Below are positions 16,630 through 32,269 of a stretch of 64,000 nucleotides of DNA, piece after piece. The position numbers and the translations under genes are program-made. This DNA is from Salipiger pentaromativorans (GTDB taxonomy: Bacteria > Pseudomonadota > Alphaproteobacteria > Rhodobacterales > Rhodobacteraceae), in assembly GCF_024721115.1 (NCBI RefSeq), contig NZ_JAMDHK010000003.1, forward strand, positions 233,403-297,402, read 5' to 3'. The notes under the pieces were generated by a model that saw only the letters and a list, made by a program, of their open reading frames with translations, was not told the origin of the DNA and searched no databases. How positions within the stretch are numbered: the stretch's first letter is position 1; each line of letters begins with the position of its first letter.

Positions 16630-17502
16630 TCAGGCTGCCCAGCCCTCCGGCACGGCATCCCCGAAGCGCGCCCGGCAAAAGCTGTACTGATCCGCCAGCC
16701 GGGTGCGGAACGCCTCGCGCGCGGCATCGGGCAGCGGCGTCCGGACCTCGGTCTCGTTCTGCGGCGCGCGGGTTTGCGGAGGGCGAAAGGCCAGGCCGGC
16801 AAAGGCGCAGAGCCGGCGCAGGCTGTGATCGGCCAGAAGATCCTCGTAGAAGAGGAACAGCAGATCGTCCGACGGAAAGACCGCCTCGAGCGCCTCGATG
16901 GTGGCGCGGTAATCGGCGCGCGCCAGCAGCGCCTCCGAGCGCAACGCCTCGGGCCACTTGCACAGCGCGTCGTTCTCCGGGTTGAGCTGTTCGAGCTGAC
17001 GCAGTTGCGACCAGAAGCGCGTGACCGGATCGCGCAGGATGAACAGCAGCTTCGGCGCGACTTTCTGAGAGGCCGCAAACGCCCGAAGATAAGCGAACCC
17101 CTCGGCGCCGATGGCGGCATAGGCGGGGGTTATGTCGCAAAAGGCCCGGGTCTCGGGGCCGCAGAGCCGCGCGAAATGCGCAAAATAGGCATTGTCGTCA
17201 TAGACCATCTGGGCGCGGTCGACGCTGGCGCGGAAATTCGGCCTGTCGCGCAGGTTCTGCACCGGATCGCCGGGCTGACCGAGGTGAAAGCGCAGCCGGG
17301 CCACGGCAAGCCCCTCCATGTCGCCCAGCGCGTTCTGTGGAAACCTGACGTTGAAGAAATGCACTTCCTTGAGGGGCGAGACGGTGGCGTCGGGCAGGCT
17401 GTGCAGATAGCCATGCAGCCAGCTTGTCGCACATTTCGCGGCGCCGACGCAGACCAGGAAGGTCTTGCCGTCAAGCGCCGGGTATCGCAGCAGCGATGGC
17501 AT
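16630..17502 (-). CDS. Sulfotransferase-family protein
   Basis: A 290-aa PAPS-dependent sulfotransferase-fold protein. The 5'-phosphosulfate loop is near the N terminus (FLVCVGAAKCATSWLHGYL, with the invariant Lys) and the 3'-phosphate loop is LRDPVTRFWSQL. The start at 17502 was chosen because it lies just ahead of the first beta strand; the extra 26 codons upstream are arginine-rich and unsupported. Bacterial members sulfate lipids, sugars or secondary metabolites in the cytoplasm. It lies 1.3 kb from the PKS-NRPS operon end, so it might decorate that product, but a 667-nt non-coding stretch separates them. Confidence 0.85.
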   Translation of the reverse strand: MPSLLRYPALDGKTFLVCVGAAKCATSWLHGYLHSLPDATVSPLKEVHFFNVRFPQNALGDMEGLAVARLRFHLGQPGDPVQNLRDRPNFRASVDRAQMVYDDNAYFAHFARLCGPETRAFCDITPAYAAIGAEGFAYLRAFAASQKVAPKLLFILRDPVTRFWSQLRQLEQLNPENDALCKWPEALRSEALLARADYRATIEALEAVFPSDDLLFLFYEDLLADHSLRRLCAFAGLAFRPPQTRAPQNETEVRTPLPDAAREAFRTRLADQYSFCRARFGDAVPEGWAA

Positions 17503-18169
17503 GGCATGTGTCAGACCCGGCCCTCCCGTTCTCCGGCGGCGATACCGTCGCAGGGTGCCACAGCCGGCGTTTCCGCTCAACGCGGGATGCGGGTGCGGTG
17601 CCGGCGAGTTCTCTAAAATGCGCTCTTTTCGGGAAAGCGGGCACCCTCGCCGGATTCCGCCGGCATCTTTTCCGGGCGGGCTCAGGCGCCCCCTTGTGCC
17701 GCTATACTGGCAATGCCAGCGGCACAGGGTTTTCGCGCCAGACCAGCGCGTATTTTCCCGAGATAATTTCCTGTGAAGGCGACATATGAGACGGAAAGGA
17801 AACCTCCATCTTCGATCCTTTCGGCAAGAATTGGCCGAAACCTATCAAAAAGACGTTACGCTCCCACGGCGCCGAACCGGAGACTTAGACCGGCATTCAT
17901 TTATTCATGCTATCAGCGCGTCTATTTCCAAAATCCGAATATATCATCGAAATATACCCGTCGCGCATCGGAAAACGCCAGATTTCCATCTCCCGCCCGC
18001 CGTTTTCGATTGGACCATGGCACCGAGCACCACGCGAGAGCGCACCGCCCCGGCGCCCGGAAGCGCGGGTCGTCCGCACCGCCGCCGCGTTTTCCGAACG
18101 CTTTTTCGCAAGCCCCGGCGCCGGTCCATCCGAGCGGCTTCCGGCACCGCTCGCGACGCGCAGAACCCG
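17503..18169. other. Non-coding stretch between sulfotransferase and RHH gene
   Basis: No reading frame here has a credible start or domain; those that exist overlap on both strands. The part 17770-18000 is poorer in GC than its surroundings. A hairpin with arms GTGCCGCT (17696-17703) and AGCGGCAC (17718-17725) is the only clear structure. The region may hold promoters for the sulfotransferase or unannotated small RNA, but nothing decides this. Confidence 0.45.
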
Positions 18170-18771: not shown

Positions 18772-19569
18772 TCAGGCCCCGCATGCGGCGACGGCGGCGC
18801 GCGCGCCCTGCCGCAAGCCTGCCGCGCCGGTTTCCGGCCCCCGGAGAACCGCCATGGAAAGCGCGTGATCCGCTCCCGCCGGACAGTGCCGCAACTCCCA
18901 GCCCGGGCCGCCCCGCGCCAGCGCCGGTTCGGCCTCGGGCAGCCCGTGACCGAGATCGGGGATGATCCCTCGCGGATCCTGCGACAGACCGGCGCCCGTC
19001 GCTTTCAGGATCGCCTCCTTGAGCGTCCAGAGCCGGACAAAATGGCGGGGGACCGCCTGACCGATCAGCCGGGAGCCGGCGCGCAGCTCGGCCGGGGCAC
19101 AGAACAGAGCCGCGCCGCGGACGATGTCCTCCCTCAGACACGGCTCGACATCCACGCCGATCCGGCCCTGCCAGCAGAGCGCGACAGCCACCGCGCCGCG
19201 GCAGTGGCTCAGGCTGGCATCGGGCGCAGGCGCGGTGGAACGAAGGTGCAGGCGCGGCTTCGCGCCGGGCGCGGGCTGCCTCAGGCGCGCCTCGCCCAGA
19301 CCCGCGCGCCGCGCCGTCAGCGCCATCAGCCCGTGGGCGGCCACGTAATCCCGCCGGTCGGCCGGGCGCTGAAACTGCGCGGCACGGGCGCGCTGCTCGT
19401 CATGGAGCGCCGCCAGCAGTGCGCGCATCTGGCCGGGGCCGATGCGCCCGGTCGCCATGAAGAGCACCACAAAGGCGCCGTCGCGGCAAAACGGGCTGTA
19501 GACGGGCAGTCCGTGCCCCGCGCGCAGCCGGGCCGCAATGCGGCCCAGCCCGCGCCCGGCGCCGCTCAT
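18772..19569 (-). CDS. 4'-Phosphopantetheinyl transferase (Sfp type)
   Basis: A 265-aa Sfp-type transferase that attaches the phosphopantetheine arm of CoA to carrier domains. The magnesium/CoA motif GRIGVDVEP and the active-site helix RLWTLKEAILKATGAGL are complete, as is the RDYVAAHGLM segment before them. The ATG overlaps the stop of the RidA gene (ATGA, 19566-19569), so it is the last gene of the PKS-NRPS operon. It would activate the ACP of the PKS and the PCP of the NRPS. Having a dedicated transferase in the operon supports a self-contained, functional assembly line. Confidence 0.92.
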   Translation of the reverse strand: MSGAGRGLGRIAARLRAGHGLPVYSPFCRDGAFVVLFMATGRIGPGQMRALLAALHDEQRARAAQFQRPADRRDYVAAHGLMALTARRAGLGEARLRQPAPGAKPRLHLRSTAPAPDASLSHCRGAVAVALCWQGRIGVDVEPCLREDIVRGAALFCAPAELRAGSRLIGQAVPRHFVRLWTLKEAILKATGAGLSQDPRGIIPDLGHGLPEAEPALARGGPGWELRHCPAGADHALSMAVLRGPETGAAGLRQGARAAVAACGA

Positions 19570-19961
19570 CCCGCCGTCACCGCGGCCACCGCCGAAATCT
19601 CGACCAGCGCGTCGGGATGGGCAAAGCGCGCGATTTCCAGCAGCGTCGTCGCCGGCATCGCCCGGCGGAATGCCGCGCCATGCGCCTCGCCGACACCCTC
19701 CCACCGGGAAATATCGGCGACATAGACCTTGGTTTCGACGACATCGTCGAGCCCCGCGCCAAACGTCGCCAGCGCCGCGGCGATACGGTCGAGGATCACC
19801 TCGGCCTGCGCCTTGGCATCGCCCGGATGCGAGATCTCACCGGTGTCCAGCCGGGCCAGCGCCCCCGAGACGAAAATCAGGTCACCCACCCGAACCGCCC
19901 GCGAATAGCTGGCCAGCGCGGCGGTCGCGCTTCCGGCATCGAGCCGCTCGACCCGGCTCAT
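19566..19961 (-). CDS. RidA/YjgF-family protein
   Basis: A 131-aa RidA-fold protein: YSRAVRVGDLIFVSGALAR near the N terminus, VVETKVYVADISRW in the centre, and a C-terminal HPDALVEISAVAAV. The typical catalytic/ligand Arg lies in many members in an 'R-x-x-V' context near the C terminus; here that segment reads HPDALVEI, so imine deaminase activity is uncertain. The gene overlaps both neighbours by ATGA, within the PKS-NRPS operon. Inference: it removes reactive enamine/imine by-products or catalyses a condensation or cyclisation step on the product. Its presence inside the tightly coupled operon argues for a pathway role. Confidence 0.88.
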   Translation of the reverse strand: MSRVERLDAGSATAALASYSRAVRVGDLIFVSGALARLDTGEISHPGDAKAQAEVILDRIAAALATFGAGLDDVVETKVYVADISRWEGVGEAHGAAFRRAMPATTLLEIARFAHPDALVEISAVAAVTAG

Positions 19962-20824
19962 TCCCGCGCCTCCCGGCTCGAAATCGCCTCCCGGATGGAA
20001 TCTGCCATGAGCTGATGCACCTTGGTGGTCGGAAAGACCTCGGTCAGAAACACATGGCTGCCCTCGTCGCGGCCGCCCGCCTCCAGCAACGGCGCCAGCG
20101 GCTCGGTCGTATTGGCAAAGCCGAATTGCGCCCCGTCGCTCAGCAGACGCCGGAAGAAGGCGTCGAAGCTCCAGCGCAGGAAACGGATCTGGAGCTTTTG
20201 CTCCAGCGCCAGCAGCATTCGGCGGAAACAGCGGTTGTAGATTTCCGACAGCAATTGCGCCCGCGCCGGATCGCCCTGCATGCGGATCAGCGGCAGCACC
20301 GAGACGTCGATGAAATCGGGCGCCATGACGTGTTTTGCCCCGGCCTCGACCAGCCGCCGCAGCGCCCGTTCGAGCCCGTCGATCGCATCCATCAGCAATT
20401 GCACGCTTTCGGCATTGTCCTGGGTCATCACCGCCTGGATGACATCGTTGCCGCCATTGAAGACGAAATAGAGCGCATTCGGGTCGGCCGCGCCGTCCAC
20501 ACTGTCGAGATAGGCAGAGACCTGTCCGGCAAGGTCGCCGGGCCGGTCGCCGGCGGCCATGGCATCGCGCACGGCGAAATTGCTGCCCTTGACCGGCCCC
20601 ACCAGATGCATCGAGGGCTGCACGCTCAGCCCCAGGCTCCGCGCCAGCAGCTCCCCGGCAACGGGGCCGTTGGTGGTGCGCCCCTCGAAAAAGGGTTTCG
20701 GCGACGCGCCGTGGAGGGAATCGTAATTTCCGTTGTCCGACAGCGCACCGCTGAATTCCACCATGGCGCTGAAGCGCCGGTTTCTGCGGTCGTCCAGGGA
20801 TTCGACGGATCTGACCTCGTTCAT
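19958..20824 (-). CDS. SGNH/GDSL-fold protein with all catalytic residues replaced
   Basis: A 288-aa protein that aligns with the thermolabile-hemolysin/GDSL-lipase branch of SGNH hydrolases: block I FSGALSDNGN (residues 24-33), the following GRTTNGPVAGELLA and GSNFAVRDA, block III NGGND (near residue 125) and block V LTEVFPTTKVH. Canonical block I is FGDSLSDxGN; here Ala27 stands at the catalytic Ser. Canonical block V is DxxHPT; here Thr261 and Phe264 replace Asp and His. The fold is well kept but the triad is gone, so it should be a non-hydrolytic binding or scaffold protein. It follows the NRPS gene after 11 nt (AGAGGTT site) and overlaps ridA by ATGA. Confidence 0.85.
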   Translation of the reverse strand: MNEVRSVESLDDRRNRRFSAMVEFSGALSDNGNYDSLHGASPKPFFEGRTTNGPVAGELLARSLGLSVQPSMHLVGPVKGSNFAVRDAMAAGDRPGDLAGQVSAYLDSVDGAADPNALYFVFNGGNDVIQAVMTQDNAESVQLLMDAIDGLERALRRLVEAGAKHVMAPDFIDVSVLPLIRMQGDPARAQLLSEIYNRCFRRMLLALEQKLQIRFLRWSFDAFFRRLLSDGAQFGFANTTEPLAPLLEAGGRDEGSHVFLTEVFPTTKVHQLMADSIREAISSREARE

Positions 20825-20835
20825 GACTGTAACCT

Positions 20836-23800
20836 CTACTGCGTCAGCTTGCGGGAAAGAGCATGGGCCAGCTCGGCGACATGGGGTTCGGCGAGCATGG
20901 TGATGTGATGGCCGGGCGTGTCGGTCACCGCGACCGGGCCGGTGGCGAAGCGGTCCCAGCCGAAGGCGCGGGCGGCGTCGTCCACGGCGGAATAATCGTA
21001 GTCGCGATGGGCCTGCGCCGCGCGGAACAGCGCGATGGGCAGGGTCGGGCGCTGCTCGGGCCGGTAGATTGCGGTGCTGTTCGACAGGAAGACGCGGAAC
21101 AGCGCGCGGACCTGTGCCTCGCCGGCGCCGCAGGGCACGATGCCGGCGGCTTCGAACCCGCCCGCGATCCGCCGCAGCAGCGTGTCCTGCGTCTCGCCCG
21201 ACAGATCGTCGGGCAGATCGAGCGCGGCATCGCTGTCCTCGGAAAAGGCCTTGGCGAATTTCGCCACCCAGACCGGATCGTCGGAGGCCGGCCGGCCGGC
21301 ACCGCAGGAGGCCGCAAGCCCCGGCCCCGGCGCATCGAGCACGGCGAGCAGTTCGACCTCCTCGCCCATCTCCACAAGCTGGCGGCCGATCTCGTAGGCC
21401 ACCCAGCCTCCGAAACAATGTCCCGCCAGCAGATAGGGCCCCGAAGGTTGCAGCGCGCGGATATGGGCTAGATACCCGCGCGCCGCCTCTTCGACACTGG
21501 CCTTGGGAGGAGCTCCATCCAGGCCGAAGGACTGTATGCCGTAGAACCCGATCTCTTCGGGAAGATGCGCGGCGAGATGGTAGAAATAGACGACATTTCC
21601 GCCGCCCCCCGCGACGCAGAAAAGCCGCCGCTCCCCCTGCCCCTCGCGGATCGGCACAATGGGCGACCAGGCCCCGCCGGCACCCGCGCGCAGCGTCTCG
21701 GCCAGCCGCGCCACGGTCTGCCGGCTCATCAGCGCCGAGACCGGCAGCCGGACGCCGAATTCGCGCTCGATCTCGGCCATCATGGCGACCGCCAGAAAGG
21801 AATGCCCGCCGAGCGCGAAGAAATTGTCGTCGATGCCCAGCGTGTCGCGGCGCAGCAGGTTTTGCCAGATCCGCAAGAGCCGCTGTTCGGTCCAGTCGCG
21901 CGGCGGCGCCATCGCGGCGACGCTGTCCTGCCCCCGGTCGGGCCGTGGCAGGGCCGCGTCGTCGATCTTGCCATTCGCATTGAGCGGGAAGGCGTCGAGA
22001 AACACGACATCGGCGGGCACCATGTAATCGGGCAACCGCCCGGCGACATGCTGGCGCAGCGCCTGAACCGAGCTCTGCGCCCCGTCCCGGACAACCGCAT
22101 AACCGATCAGCCGGGTCTCCTCGCCCTGCCCCACCGGGCGCACGATGGCCGAGCGCAACGCGGGGTGGCTGGCCAGCGCATGTTCGACCTCTCCCAGCTC
22201 AATGCGGAAGCCGCGCAGCTTGACCTGCCGGTCGGCGCGGCCGCCGTATTCGACATCGCCGTTGCGCCGCCGCACCGCCAGATCGCCCGAGCGGTAGAGC
22301 CGCCCGCCCGGTTCCCGCCCGAACGGATCGGCGACAAAGCGCTGCGCCGTCAGCTCGGGCCGGTTGTGATAGCCCACGCCGACCCCGTCGCCGCCGACAT
22401 AGATCTCGCCACGCACGCCAAAGGGCACCGGCTCCATCCGGTCGTCCAGCAGGTAGATCCGCAGATCCGGGAAGGGCTCGCCGATCATGCTCGACGGCCG
22501 GTCGATGTCCTCGGCCCGGATGCGGCGGTACATGGCATGCACCGTGGTTTCGGTGATCCCGTACATATTGACGATCTGCGGCTGCGCATCGCCCGCCAGC
22601 GCCACCCAGGGCCGCAGGATCTGCGGCTCGAGCGCCTCGCCGGCAAAGCTGATGAGCCGCAGCCGCCCCTCTTTCGCCAGATCCGGCAGGGTCGCGGCCT
22701 TGGTCAACAGCCGGAAGGCCGAAGGCGTCTGGTTCAGCACCGTCGCCCCCTCGGCCACCAGCAGCGTGACCAGATCGTCCGGCGCGCGCACGGTCTCGTG
22801 CGGCACCATCAGCAGCCGCCCGCCATAAAGGAACGCGCCCCAGATCTCCCAGACCGACACGTCGAAGGCGAAGGAATGCAGCAGCGGCCAGACATCCTCT
22901 GTAACAAACCCGTAATAACCGTCGGTGGTGAGGAACAGCCGCAGCACGTTGCGATGGGTGATGACCACGCCCTTCGGCCGCCCGGTGGTGCCCGAGGTGT
23001 AGATCACATAGGCGGCGCGGTCGGGATCGCCCGGTGGCACCGGCACGGCGCCACCGCCCTGCGCGATGGCTGGCCAGTCGCTGTCGAGGCACAGCACGTC
23101 GACGCCCTCGCCCGCACGGTCGACCAGATGCGCCTGGGTGAGCAGCATCTCGACCCCGCTGTCGGCGAGGATGAAGCGCTGGCGCTCGGCGGGGCTCTGC
23201 GGGTCGATGGGCACATAGGCGCCGCCCGCCTTGAGAATGCCCAGCATCCCCACCAGCATCTCGACCGAGCGCTCGACACAAAGGCCGATGCGCTGGCCAG
23301 CCAGCCCACGGCGCTGCAACTCGGCCGCCAGCAGGTCCGAGCGCGCATCGAGGTCGCGATAGCTGAGCGCAAAACCCACGCCATTCAGCGCGATCCGGTC
23401 GGGGTGGCGGGCGGCGGTGGACCGGAACGCGGACCCAAGATCGGTCTCGACGGGAAACCGCGTGGCGATGTCGCCCGCCGCGTCCAGACACAGCGCCCGC
23501 GCCGCCTGGGGCTGAAGACGCAGCGCGCCCAGCGGGCGGTCCATGGCCTCGAGCGCATCCGCCAGCAAGGTGACGAAGCTCTCGGCGATCTGCGCCACCT
23601 CCGCCTGCCCGAAGAGCGCGGCATCGGCCTTGAGCCGTCCGAAGATCTCGGCCTCGCCGTCGATCAGCTCCAGCGTCAGGTCAAGCTGGCCTTCCTGCTG
23701 GCGGATGTCGAAGGCCGAGGCCCCGAGCCCGCCCCAGTTGCCGGGCCGGCTTTCGCCCTCCGGCGCCAGAAGATCGAACACCGATCCGGGCTGCGGCGCG

Positions 23801-24914
23801 CGCTGCAGCACAATCGAGGACTGGAAGACCGGCGAACAGCCCGGGTGGCGCGGCGGCGCCAGCCGCTTGACCAGCATCCCGAAGGGCAGCCCGCCATGTT
23901 CCCGCGCGTCGAGCAGATGTTCGAGCGTCTCGGCCACCAGCGCATCGAAGGGCCGGTCGCCGTCGAGCCCGGAGCGGATCGGGAGCTGGTTGACGAAATG
24001 GCCCGCGACGCGGGCAAAGGCGCCCTCGCGCATCCCCGCCACCGGCACGCCGATCACGATGTCGGACTCGCCGGAATAGCGGTGCAGCAGCGCCTGGAAG
24101 GCCGCCAGCAGAAGGGCATAGGGGGTGGCGCCGGCCTCGCGGGCACGGCTCCGCAGCCGCGCGGTCAGCCCCGCGCCCAGGCGCAGCGGGCAGGACAGGC
24201 CGCTCAGCGAGGGCTCGGACGGGCGCGGCCCGGCGATCGGCAGGGTCAGCGCCGGGGGCACCCCCTCCAGCCGCTGCTCCCAGTAGCGCCAGCTCGCTGC
24301 GGCGCCCGGCGCGGTCAGCGCCGCGCGCTCGCGCAGCACATAGTCGCGATAGCTGGGCCCCGGGCCGGTCTCCGTGCTGTCGCCGGCATAACGCGCGCCC
24401 AGCTCGTCCATCAGCATCCACAGCGTCCAGCCGTCGCAGACGATGTGATGCGCCGTCACCAGCAGCACATGCGACCGCGCGCTTTGCCGGAACAGCTCGA
24501 AGCGGTAAAGCGGCCCGGTCTCCAGATCGAAGGGCGCGTCGTGATGCGCCTGCACCGTCTCGCGCAGCGCCTCGGGCGTCGCACCATCGAGCGCGGTTTG
24601 GCGCAGCGGCACCTCCCTGTCGGCGAGGATCCTCTGCCACAGCACGCCGTCGCGGTCCTCGAACCGGGCGCGCAGCGCGTCGTGGCGGTCGACCATCGCC
24701 TGACAGGCCCGTTGCAGCGCCGCGATGTCGGGCGGATCGGCCAGCGCCAGGGCAAAGCCCACGTTATAGGCCGGGCTGCGCGGCGCCGACTGGTGCAGAT
24801 ACCACAGCGCGGTCTGGCCTTCCGAACAGGGCCAGACGCGGGTGCCGTCCTGTGTCTGGCGCAGCAGGATCTCACGCGCCTTGGCGCGCAGCATGGCGGT
24901 GGCGTCGGCGCCGC

Positions 24915-24918
<4 letters not shown>
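20836..24918 (-). CDS. Nonribosomal peptide synthetase, C-A-PCP-TE
   Basis: A 1360-aa single-module synthetase. Condensation domain: residues about 20-450, HHIVCDG motif near 155. Adenylation domain: about 500-1000, with YTSGTTGRPKG (near 641), NMYGITETTVH and GRADRQVKLRGFRIELG. Hand-read specificity pocket, aligned to GrsA positions: D V W N S A M V H K, closest to the threonine code (DFWNIGMVHK). Peptidyl carrier: NFFALGGHSFLAV (near 1036). Thioesterase: about 1120-1350, with AGHCFGGW, so Cys1168 replaces the usual Ser nucleophile, and a HHITMLAEPH His. The start overlaps the PKS stop by ATGA. It should condense the PKS acyl chain with one amino acid, and release it through the Cys thioesterase. 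Confidence 0.93.
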
Positions 24919-31127
<6,209 letters not shown>

Positions 31128-31288
31128 TACACGCTCCATGTTTGCAGGACGGGATCCGTCGTCACTCTCGTAGCTGAGAGTAACGGGGGTCGTTCGCGCC
31201 TAGGTAGCATGCCTGTACCGCATGGTTTTTCTCGTCACGATTTCGAATTGCGCCTATAGTCGGGAATGAAAGACCGGGAGTTTTGAAA
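31128..31288. promoter_or_regulatory. Divergent promoter region of PKS operon and dipeptidase
   Basis: This 161-nt gap must carry the promoter of the leftward PKS-NRPS operon and that of the rightward dipeptidase. An inverted repeat ACTCTC (31164-31169) / GAGAGT (31176-31181) with a 6-nt spacer is a candidate operator. A TATAGT at 31254-31259 could be the -10 of the dipeptidase, with only a weak -35. No consensus promoter for the PKS stands out. Confidence 0.4.
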
Positions 31289-32269
31289 ATGACACACCCA
31301 ATGCTTATAGATATTCACTGCCATTCCAGGCGCATCCTTTATCCGAATACCGCGCCCGAGGATTTTGCGGGCGCCCTGCGGCGGAATCGCGTTTCAGTCG
31401 CCGTTCTGAACGTGGTGCCCGACGGGCCGCTTCTGGCCTTCACGCCGGGCGGTATCTCGGTTTCGGCGCCCACGGACGACCGGCAGATCGGGCGCTATGT
31501 GGCCAAGGTGTTCGAGATCATCGAATCGATGGTCGCCGCAGGCGAGGTGCAGCGCATCACCAGCAGCGCCGAGCTGGCGGCGCTGAGCGAAACCGGCACT
31601 CCGGGCATCGTCGTCGGCATCGAAGGGGCCGACCATCTGGGTGGCGATCTGTCGCGCATCGACCGTGATTACGACCGCCACAAGCTGCGCCAGATGGGGC
31701 TGGTCCACTATCTGAAAAGCGCCCTTGCCGACAATCAGACGGAAGAGGAAAGTCACAACGGTATCAGCGCTTTCGGGAAGAAAGTTGTCCAGCGCTGCAA
31801 CGCCTTGGGCATCATCGTCGATCTCGCCCATCTGTCGGAGCGGGCGATGCGCGCGGTGATCGCTTGCAGCGCGGCGCCGGTGATCTGTTCGCACAGCTCG
31901 ATCCGCGACCCGGGCGATGACAATGTCAGGCTGATGCCCGCCGAGATTGCGCGCGAGATTGCCGCCACCGGCGGGCTGATCGGTGTCTGGCCGAACGCGA
32001 CGATCTTTCCGACACCCGAGTGCTATGCCGCCGGGCTCTACCGTCTGGCGCAGGACATCGGTGTCGATCATGTCGCCATCGGCACGGACCGGGCGGGGCT
32101 GCAAACAAGCCTGTTTCCGGATTATACCGGCGCCGAAAATCTGCCGGAGCATCTGCAACGAAGCGGCTTTTCCGACCCCGATACGCGAAAAATTTTGGGC
32201 GAAAATTATATTCGTGTCTTCGCTGAAATCGAAAAAATCGCCGCGCAGAAAGAATATAAATCGGCCTGA
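31289..32269 (+). CDS. Membrane-dipeptidase family (peptidase M19) protein
   Basis: A 326-aa M19 (renal-dipeptidase-like) metallohydrolase. Expected zinc ligands: the first motif reads IDIHCHS, that is HxH where the family usually has HxD; Glu in GIEGADHL, His in VDLAHLSERAM and His in ICSHSSIRDP are kept, as is Asp in IGTDRAG. It lacks a signal peptide. The ATG at 31289 follows GGGAG; a TTG six bases earlier is also in frame. M19 enzymes cleave dipeptides, D-amino acid dipeptides and some beta-lactams. It is divergent from the PKS gene across 161 nt, so it may process or detoxify the NRPS product, but this is inferred from position only. Confidence 0.85.
   Translation: MTHPMLIDIHCHSRRILYPNTAPEDFAGALRRNRVSVAVLNVVPDGPLLAFTPGGISVSAPTDDRQIGRYVAKVFEIIESMVAAGEVQRITSSAELAALSETGTPGIVVGIEGADHLGGDLSRIDRDYDRHKLRQMGLVHYLKSALADNQTEEESHNGISAFGKKVVQRCNALGIIVDLAHLSERAMRAVIACSAAPVICSHSSIRDPGDDNVRLMPAEIAREIAATGGLIGVWPNATIFPTPECYAAGLYRLAQDIGVDHVAIGTDRAGLQTSLFPDYTGAENLPEHLQRSGFSDPDTRKILGENYIRVFAEIEKIAAQKEYKSA

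Follow-up and report, generated by a model that had tools for sequence, protein, structure and literature searches.

The window analysed here is a 64,000-nucleotide stretch of DNA from Salipiger pentaromativorans (contig NZ_JAMDHK010000003.1). It carries a tight operon, all on one strand, for a polyketide synthase (PKS), a nonribosomal peptide synthetase (NRPS), a GDSL protein, a RidA-family protein and a 4'-phosphopantetheinyl transferase (PPTase), the ends of which overlap or nearly touch. The features of the operon and of the NRPS thioesterase (TE) domain are as follows.

24915..31139, minus strand: type I PKS of 2074 aa, KS-AT-DH-KR-ACP, with an ATGA overlap with the NRPS start.
20836..24918, minus strand: NRPS of 1360 aa, C-A-T-TE, with C motif HHIVCDG (HHxxxDG) and T-domain Ser1040; Pfam domains Condensation 29-473, AMP-binding 498-851, AMP-binding_C 910-984, PP-binding 1012-1076 and Thioesterase 1097-1351.
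20866..21630, minus strand: TE domain of the NRPS, motif AGHCFGGW (Pfam PF00975, residues 1097-1351).
21415..21417, minus strand: Cys1168 codon TGT (reverse complement of ACA), nucleophile position.
21334..21336, minus strand: Asp1195 codon GAT, triad Asp at position I, directly after strand beta6.
20905..20907, minus strand: His1338 codon CAC, triad His.
19958..20824, minus strand: GDSL/SGNH-fold protein in which the triad Ser, Asp and His are replaced by Ala, Thr and Phe (PF00657, alignments and fold search).
19566..19961, minus strand: RidA-family protein (Ribonuc_L-PSP), overlapping the GDSL stop.
18772..19569, minus strand: PPTase (HetI-like), with an ATGA overlap with the RidA gene.

The C, A, T and TE domains of the NRPS all scored above the Pfam cut-offs, upholding an earlier sequence-only reading of the enzyme as a single-module NRPS; the span which that reading gave to the release domain (20836-21560) takes in most of the TE domain (about 20866-21630). 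In the PKS, the KS Cys, AT Ser, DH His/Asp, KR Ser/Tyr and ACP Ser were retained both in the window and in the four relatives described below, with the Gly of the DH motif kept in three of the five operon copies. No ER domain was reported by Pfam in the window PKS. Given the presence of the KR and DH motifs and no reported ER, a 2-enoyl thioester is the expected PKS chain. The retained KR and DH residues also make a beta-keto chain unlikely, and tetramate formation by the TE was therefore rejected. Downstream of the operon lies a sulfotransferase-family gene (16630-17580, minus strand), the gap between holding an RHH_4 gene, and a membrane dipeptidase (M19) gene (31283-32269, plus strand) is divergent from the PKS start.

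The sequence-only reading had assigned a cysteine nucleophile to the TE (GHCFGG, Cys1168, TGT at 21415-21417). This assignment was borne out, and Asp1195 and His1338 complete the triad. In an AlphaFold2 model of the TE (12 sequences, mean pLDDT 87.4), Asp1195 follows the strand at 107-113 (beta6) and thus occupies position I; it lies 27 residues after Cys1168 and aligns with the Asp of AB3403 and of Vlm2. The RifR position-II column of a 62-row alignment held Ala in the window TE and Phe, Ala, His and His in the Skermanella, Paracoccus, Rhodobacter and Cereibacter copies, with a position-II Asp in none of the five operon copies. Furthermore, the window TE reads His-Cys-Phe and does not carry the Gln-Cys-Asn motif reported for SulTE (PMC11298585). 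From its residues and predicted fold, the domain is classed as a canonical-triad Cys type I TE (Cys, position-I Asp, His) of the AB3403/BulbE kind.

The window A-domain code, read at the usual pocket positions (those of GrsA) and with the tenth position, Lys (Lys517 in the window), taken as given, is DVWNSAMVH. The Skermanella, Rhodobacter and Cereibacter copies read DVWNIAMVH, and the Paracoccus halophilus copy DFWNVGMVH. Both DFWNVGMVHK (PMC9113097) and DFWNIGMVHK (PMC12283262, PMC4169593) are reported as Thr codes. The Paracoccus code is identical to a published Thr code, the window code agrees at 7 of 10 positions, and codes in all five operon copies are Thr-like, in agreement with the Thr-like A domain proposed from the sequence alone. 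These matches make Thr or a close analogue the likely, though not certain, putative substrate of the window A domain. Hydroxyornithine, for which DVWNIGLIHK is reported (PMC12283262), was considered a less likely substrate, since that code shares 6 of 10 positions with the window code and the Thr code 7 of 10.

Relatives were obtained from a GHCFGGxxAxE pattern scan of one genome per species (84,980 species), which returned 53 stretches; phmmer (E 1e-3 or better) found a TE in 32 of these. The same operon, with PKS, C-A-T-TE NRPS and GDSL genes in order, was present in four, from Skermanella aerolata, Paracoccus halophilus, Rhodobacter xinxiangensis and Cereibacter flavus, all named strains in the scan records. 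By tblastn, the A domains are 48-54% and the TEs 39-46% identical to those of the window; in another comparison the TEs stood at 37-45%. The window Cys is no isolated case, GHCFGG being found in all four operons, but since the scan demanded this motif, its recurrence cannot be counted as an independent sign of constraint. Searches that started from the GDSL partner and so imposed no Cys condition returned no further operon from 198 genomes of the family, 390 of the order and 385 of the class, or from the genera of P. halophilus (121 genomes), Skermanella (5) and R. xinxiangensis (7); these sets overlap. Consequently, Cys conservation cannot be separated from the search condition. Peptide patterns from the window TE yielded no confirmed close relatives, and 198 genomes of the family, searched with the NRPS, showed no recognisable second operon copy. 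Among the matches listed from the open-access literature, titles and abstract openings contained no description of the operon family.

The best PDB sequence match of the window TE (3.6e-24) was AB3403 (PDB 4zxh), an Acinetobacter baumannii NRPS and ortholog of A1S_0115, which was also the rank-1 fold match of the TE model (E 7.3e-20, TM 0.83 over the model). The two enzymes share C-A-T-TE architecture, a Cys nucleophile (GWCFGG in AB3403) and the position-I Asp, the last two features being those reported for the AB3403 TE (PMC6668435, PMC11298585). AB3403 differs in that its A domain is reported to bind glycine and its operon to include an ACP (PMC5376624); its proposed product, Ac-505, is moreover not a threonine compound. 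By its reported residue positions, the BulbE-TE of the bulbiferamides also resembles the window TE: in its triad of Cys961, Asp988 and His1097 the Asp follows the Cys by 27 residues, as in Cys1168/Asp1195/His1338. However, the substrate of BulbE-TE is a multi-residue peptide, which the enzyme cyclises to an indolyl macrolactam, and substitution of its Cys by Ser is reported to lead to hydrolysis (PMC11536411).

ObiF/ObiF1 (obafluorin) and SulM (sulfazecin) resemble the window TE in their Cys nucleophile and in acting on a small N-acyl beta-substituted amino acid, the kind of substrate predicted here. Both are reported to carry the triad Asp at position II and to group with type II TEs (PMC6668435, PMC11298585), whereas the window TE has its Asp at position I. 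In ObiF1, replacement of Cys by Ser is reported to result in hydrolysis (PMC6668435, PMC11298585), and a double mutant with an EntF-like triad to have lower activity (PMC6668435). Neither ObiF1 nor SulM was among the 36 PDB sequences matched by the window TE at E 0.001; a Cys type II TE matched both (4.4e-15 and 1e-9). With no position-II Asp and no type II TE grouping, membership of the ObiF/SulM type was rejected. Three type II-like TEs (L037, L079 and L085) combine Cys in GHCFGG with a position-II Asp, the geometry reported for ObiF1 and SulM.

The placement of the operon TEs among Cys and Ser enzymes, put forward in the sequence-only reading as a check, gave a divided answer. In a 50-row tree, built with the nucleophile column removed and the Cereibacter near-copy left out, the four operon TEs that it included did form a Cys clade (98/92), but this clade is set among Ser TEs, and 8 changes between Cys and Ser were counted (7-9 over bootstrap trees, with 3 forced by starred branches). 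AB3403 fell outside the operon clade, with Ser TEs around it. A 100/100 split separated the operon TEs from RifR and from three type II-like TEs with Cys in this tree, from which ObiF1 and SulM are absent; three of its four type II-like TEs have Cys. A first, quick tree of 62 rows had placed the Ser TE L089 within the operon clade, next to the window TE (86); in the 50-row tree, which included eight more Ser TEs, L089 no longer held that position. The first tree was built without five GHCFGG loci (L045, L062, L072, L076 and L077), and for the second 20 rows were taken out, comprising near-copies and long branches and including the Cereibacter copy; L088 (a window copy), L106 (own genome, Ser) and L054 were kept out of the trees.

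The repeated interchange of Cys and Ser is what would be expected if Cys were a tolerated change and the TE released linear N-enoyl-threonine by plain hydrolysis. Against this stand the retention of Cys in five operon copies at 37-45% TE identity to the window, albeit that the scan for four of them required Cys, and the reported behaviour of Cys TEs tested elsewhere, ObiF1 and BulbE (PMC6668435, PMC11536411). Plain hydrolysis appears improbable to us.

Cys is unusual at this position. Searching 385 genomes of the class with the window TE located 20 TE places outside the window, 18 with Ser and 2 with Cys (L096 and L108), the latter both aligning without the catalytic His. On plasmids, all eight TEs read (8 of 40 listed, of 318 records) have Ser. 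The lowest E-value among the plasmid TEs listed (2e-43) belongs to a Ser TE on a plasmid of Nostoc ATCC 53789, where genes for a P450, a dioxygenase, an aspartate decarboxylase and an FAD oxidoreductase are its neighbours. This strain is reported to make cryptophycins from crpA-crpH (PMC6835634); the plasmid genes look like its cryptophycin cluster, which forms a macrolactone, and the TE gene would presumably be crpD. Elsewhere, ten cyanobacterial GHCFGG TEs (L038, L041, L049, L050, L060, L063, L066, L067, L073 and L084) have Cys and Asp aligned but not the catalytic His, and two acidobacterial ones (L035 and L057) have Glu in place of the triad Asp, with no His aligned.

The sequence-only reading had further taken the Cys as a mark of strained-ring closure, a claim which our comparisons do not sustain: the Asp is at position I rather than at position II as in ObiF1 and SulM, the nearest structure, AB3403, binds glycine, and BulbE-TE, in which Cys and Asp are spaced as in the window TE, makes a macrolactam. 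Additionally, eight other GHCFGG TEs from the scan (L038, L047, L050, L056, L063, L066, L073 and L086) follow an A domain with a complete D-initial code, and none of these codes is Thr-like; that of L086 is Gly-like. The whole triad is present in three of the eight (L047, L056 and L086). The other five align without the His and, to judge from their sequences, may be inactive or different, so that the non-Thr argument against Cys as a marker rests on three cases. Cys does not appear to predict a strained ring in general. The trait common to the tested Cys TEs is a demanding acyl transfer (beta-lactone, beta-lactam or indolylamide).

We propose that the PKS makes a 2-enoyl chain and would hand it over to the NRPS, which would activate Thr or a close analogue to give N-enoyl-threonyl-S-PCP. 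The TE would then take the N-enoyl-threonyl group onto Cys1168 as a thioester, His1338 and Asp1195 being predicted to activate the Cys in an ordinary EntF/AB3403-like geometry. Release would occur mainly through a nucleophile other than water, for which the Thr beta-hydroxyl is the likeliest candidate; we consider it probable that release follows some non-hydrolytic route. In an acyl-capped product of a single Thr module, no obvious internal nucleophile other than the Thr hydroxyl is available; its attack would give a beta-lactone within one unit or a cyclic oligoester across several.

EntF, the enterobactin synthetase, uses a Ser nucleophile and a catechol starter, where the window enzyme has Cys and a polyketide chain. 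Its Ser, like that of Vlm2 and the cryptophycin-like TE, counts against a reading in which the Cys TE would iterate in the manner of EntF, storing N-acyl-threonyl units and closing a cyclic oligoester (diolide or triolide) through the Thr hydroxyls, and we know of no reason for Cys in an oligomerising TE. The architecture of EntF nonetheless fits, for it shares the single-module C-A-T-TE organisation, a beta-hydroxy amino acid and the position-I Asp (PMC6668435), and the plasmid TE with the lowest E-value among those listed looks macrolactonising. On balance, an oligoester seems unlikely.

Alternatively, an external amine might take the acyl-threonyl group from the Cys thioester to give an amide. 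Aminolysis is favoured by thioesters, and BulbE-TE, with the same Cys-Asp spacing, is reported to form an amide (PMC11536411). However, an amine-supplying gene was not recognised among the five operon genes, and we judge aminolytic release distinctly unlikely. A product other than a beta-lactone, an oligoester, a hydrolysis product or an amide is very unlikely.

The best explanation, which we advance tentatively, is that a canonical-triad Cys TE releases N-(2-enoyl)-threonine by a non-hydrolytic route, a beta-lactone being the likeliest single product; it builds on the observed domains, motifs, triad position, operon and relatives. That the product is in fact an N-acyl-threonine beta-lactone, the likeliest single outcome, is a possibility that we hold with reserve. 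The intact Cys/Asp/His triad, the five Thr-like codes of five and the Cys clade of four operon TEs (98/92) are in its favour, and by analogy with ObiF1, SulM and BulbE, where Cys is reported to serve a difficult ring closure (PMC6668435, PMC11298585, PMC11536411), the Cys of the window TE may do likewise. The position-I Asp argues against it, since ObiF1 and SulM, both characterised strained-ring Cys TEs, have position II, and the reduced activity reported for the ObiF1 double mutant with an EntF-like triad (PMC6668435) may, by the same analogy, point the same way. So do the glycine-binding nearest structure, AB3403, and the Ser of the seemingly macrolactonising plasmid TE that was listed at the lowest E-value; in addition, four of the five copies came from a search that required the Cys.

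The GDSL motif FGDSLSD is altered to FSGALSD or FSGALTD across the operon copies (FSAAFSD in Paracoccus), and the catalytic Ser and His are lost in all five (the window copy, L118, L080, L122 and L064), the His being replaced by Phe or Tyr. By comparison, the GDSL homologues L128, L110 and L132 keep their motifs, and the matches of the GDSL search in G268, G1035 and G182 are GDSL proteins with intact motifs. A GDSL model of middling confidence (mean pLDDT 67.8) was nearest to ChoE esterase structures. The conservation of a dead esterase beside the synthetase suggests, at the level of sequence, a role in binding or handling. By eye, four GDSL copies have a signal-peptide-like N-terminal stretch, which the window copy does not.

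The R. xinxiangensis, C. flavus and P. halophilus operons contain a GloB-like MBL-fold gene, preceded in the Rhodobacter and Paracoccus operons by a predicted outer-membrane protein. A beta-lactamase-fold (AcmB-like) esterase is present in the R. xinxiangensis operon, and a similar, Pfam-untested gene in that of C. flavus. The GloB-like MBL-fold and beta-lactamase-fold genes lie at the following positions, and neither kind was seen in the window operon.

L122:18139-18948.
L122:18930 onward.
L124:796-1599.
L120:7560-8375.

On one reading, which would speak for the beta-lactone, these hydrolases are a protection against an electrophilic product: they could, as a prediction, break open such a lactone or remove the glutathione adduct formed from it. 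Their absence from the window operon, as far as seen, speaks against that use of them, and they were rejected as proof of a lactone or lactam, their best matches being the general hydrolase models GloB and AcmB, far below cut-offs.

Taken as a conserved alphaproteobacterial family, these operons would produce N-(2-enoyl)-threonine beta-lactones by means of a position-I Cys TE and a dead GDSL handler, with metallo- and serine-beta-lactamase-fold hydrolases giving self-protection in some, a wider picture that we regard as doubtful. The family offers a way to ask whether product type can be predicted from Cys in NRPS release domains. Should the window TE make no beta-lactone, Cys alone should no longer serve as a strained-ring marker. 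If, conversely, a Cys TE with a position-I Asp closes a beta-lactone, the position-II rule based on ObiF and SulM does not hold generally, and beta-lactone genome mining should be widened. An N-(2-enoyl)-threonine beta-lactone family, if true, would constitute a second, independent route to TE-formed beta-lactones.
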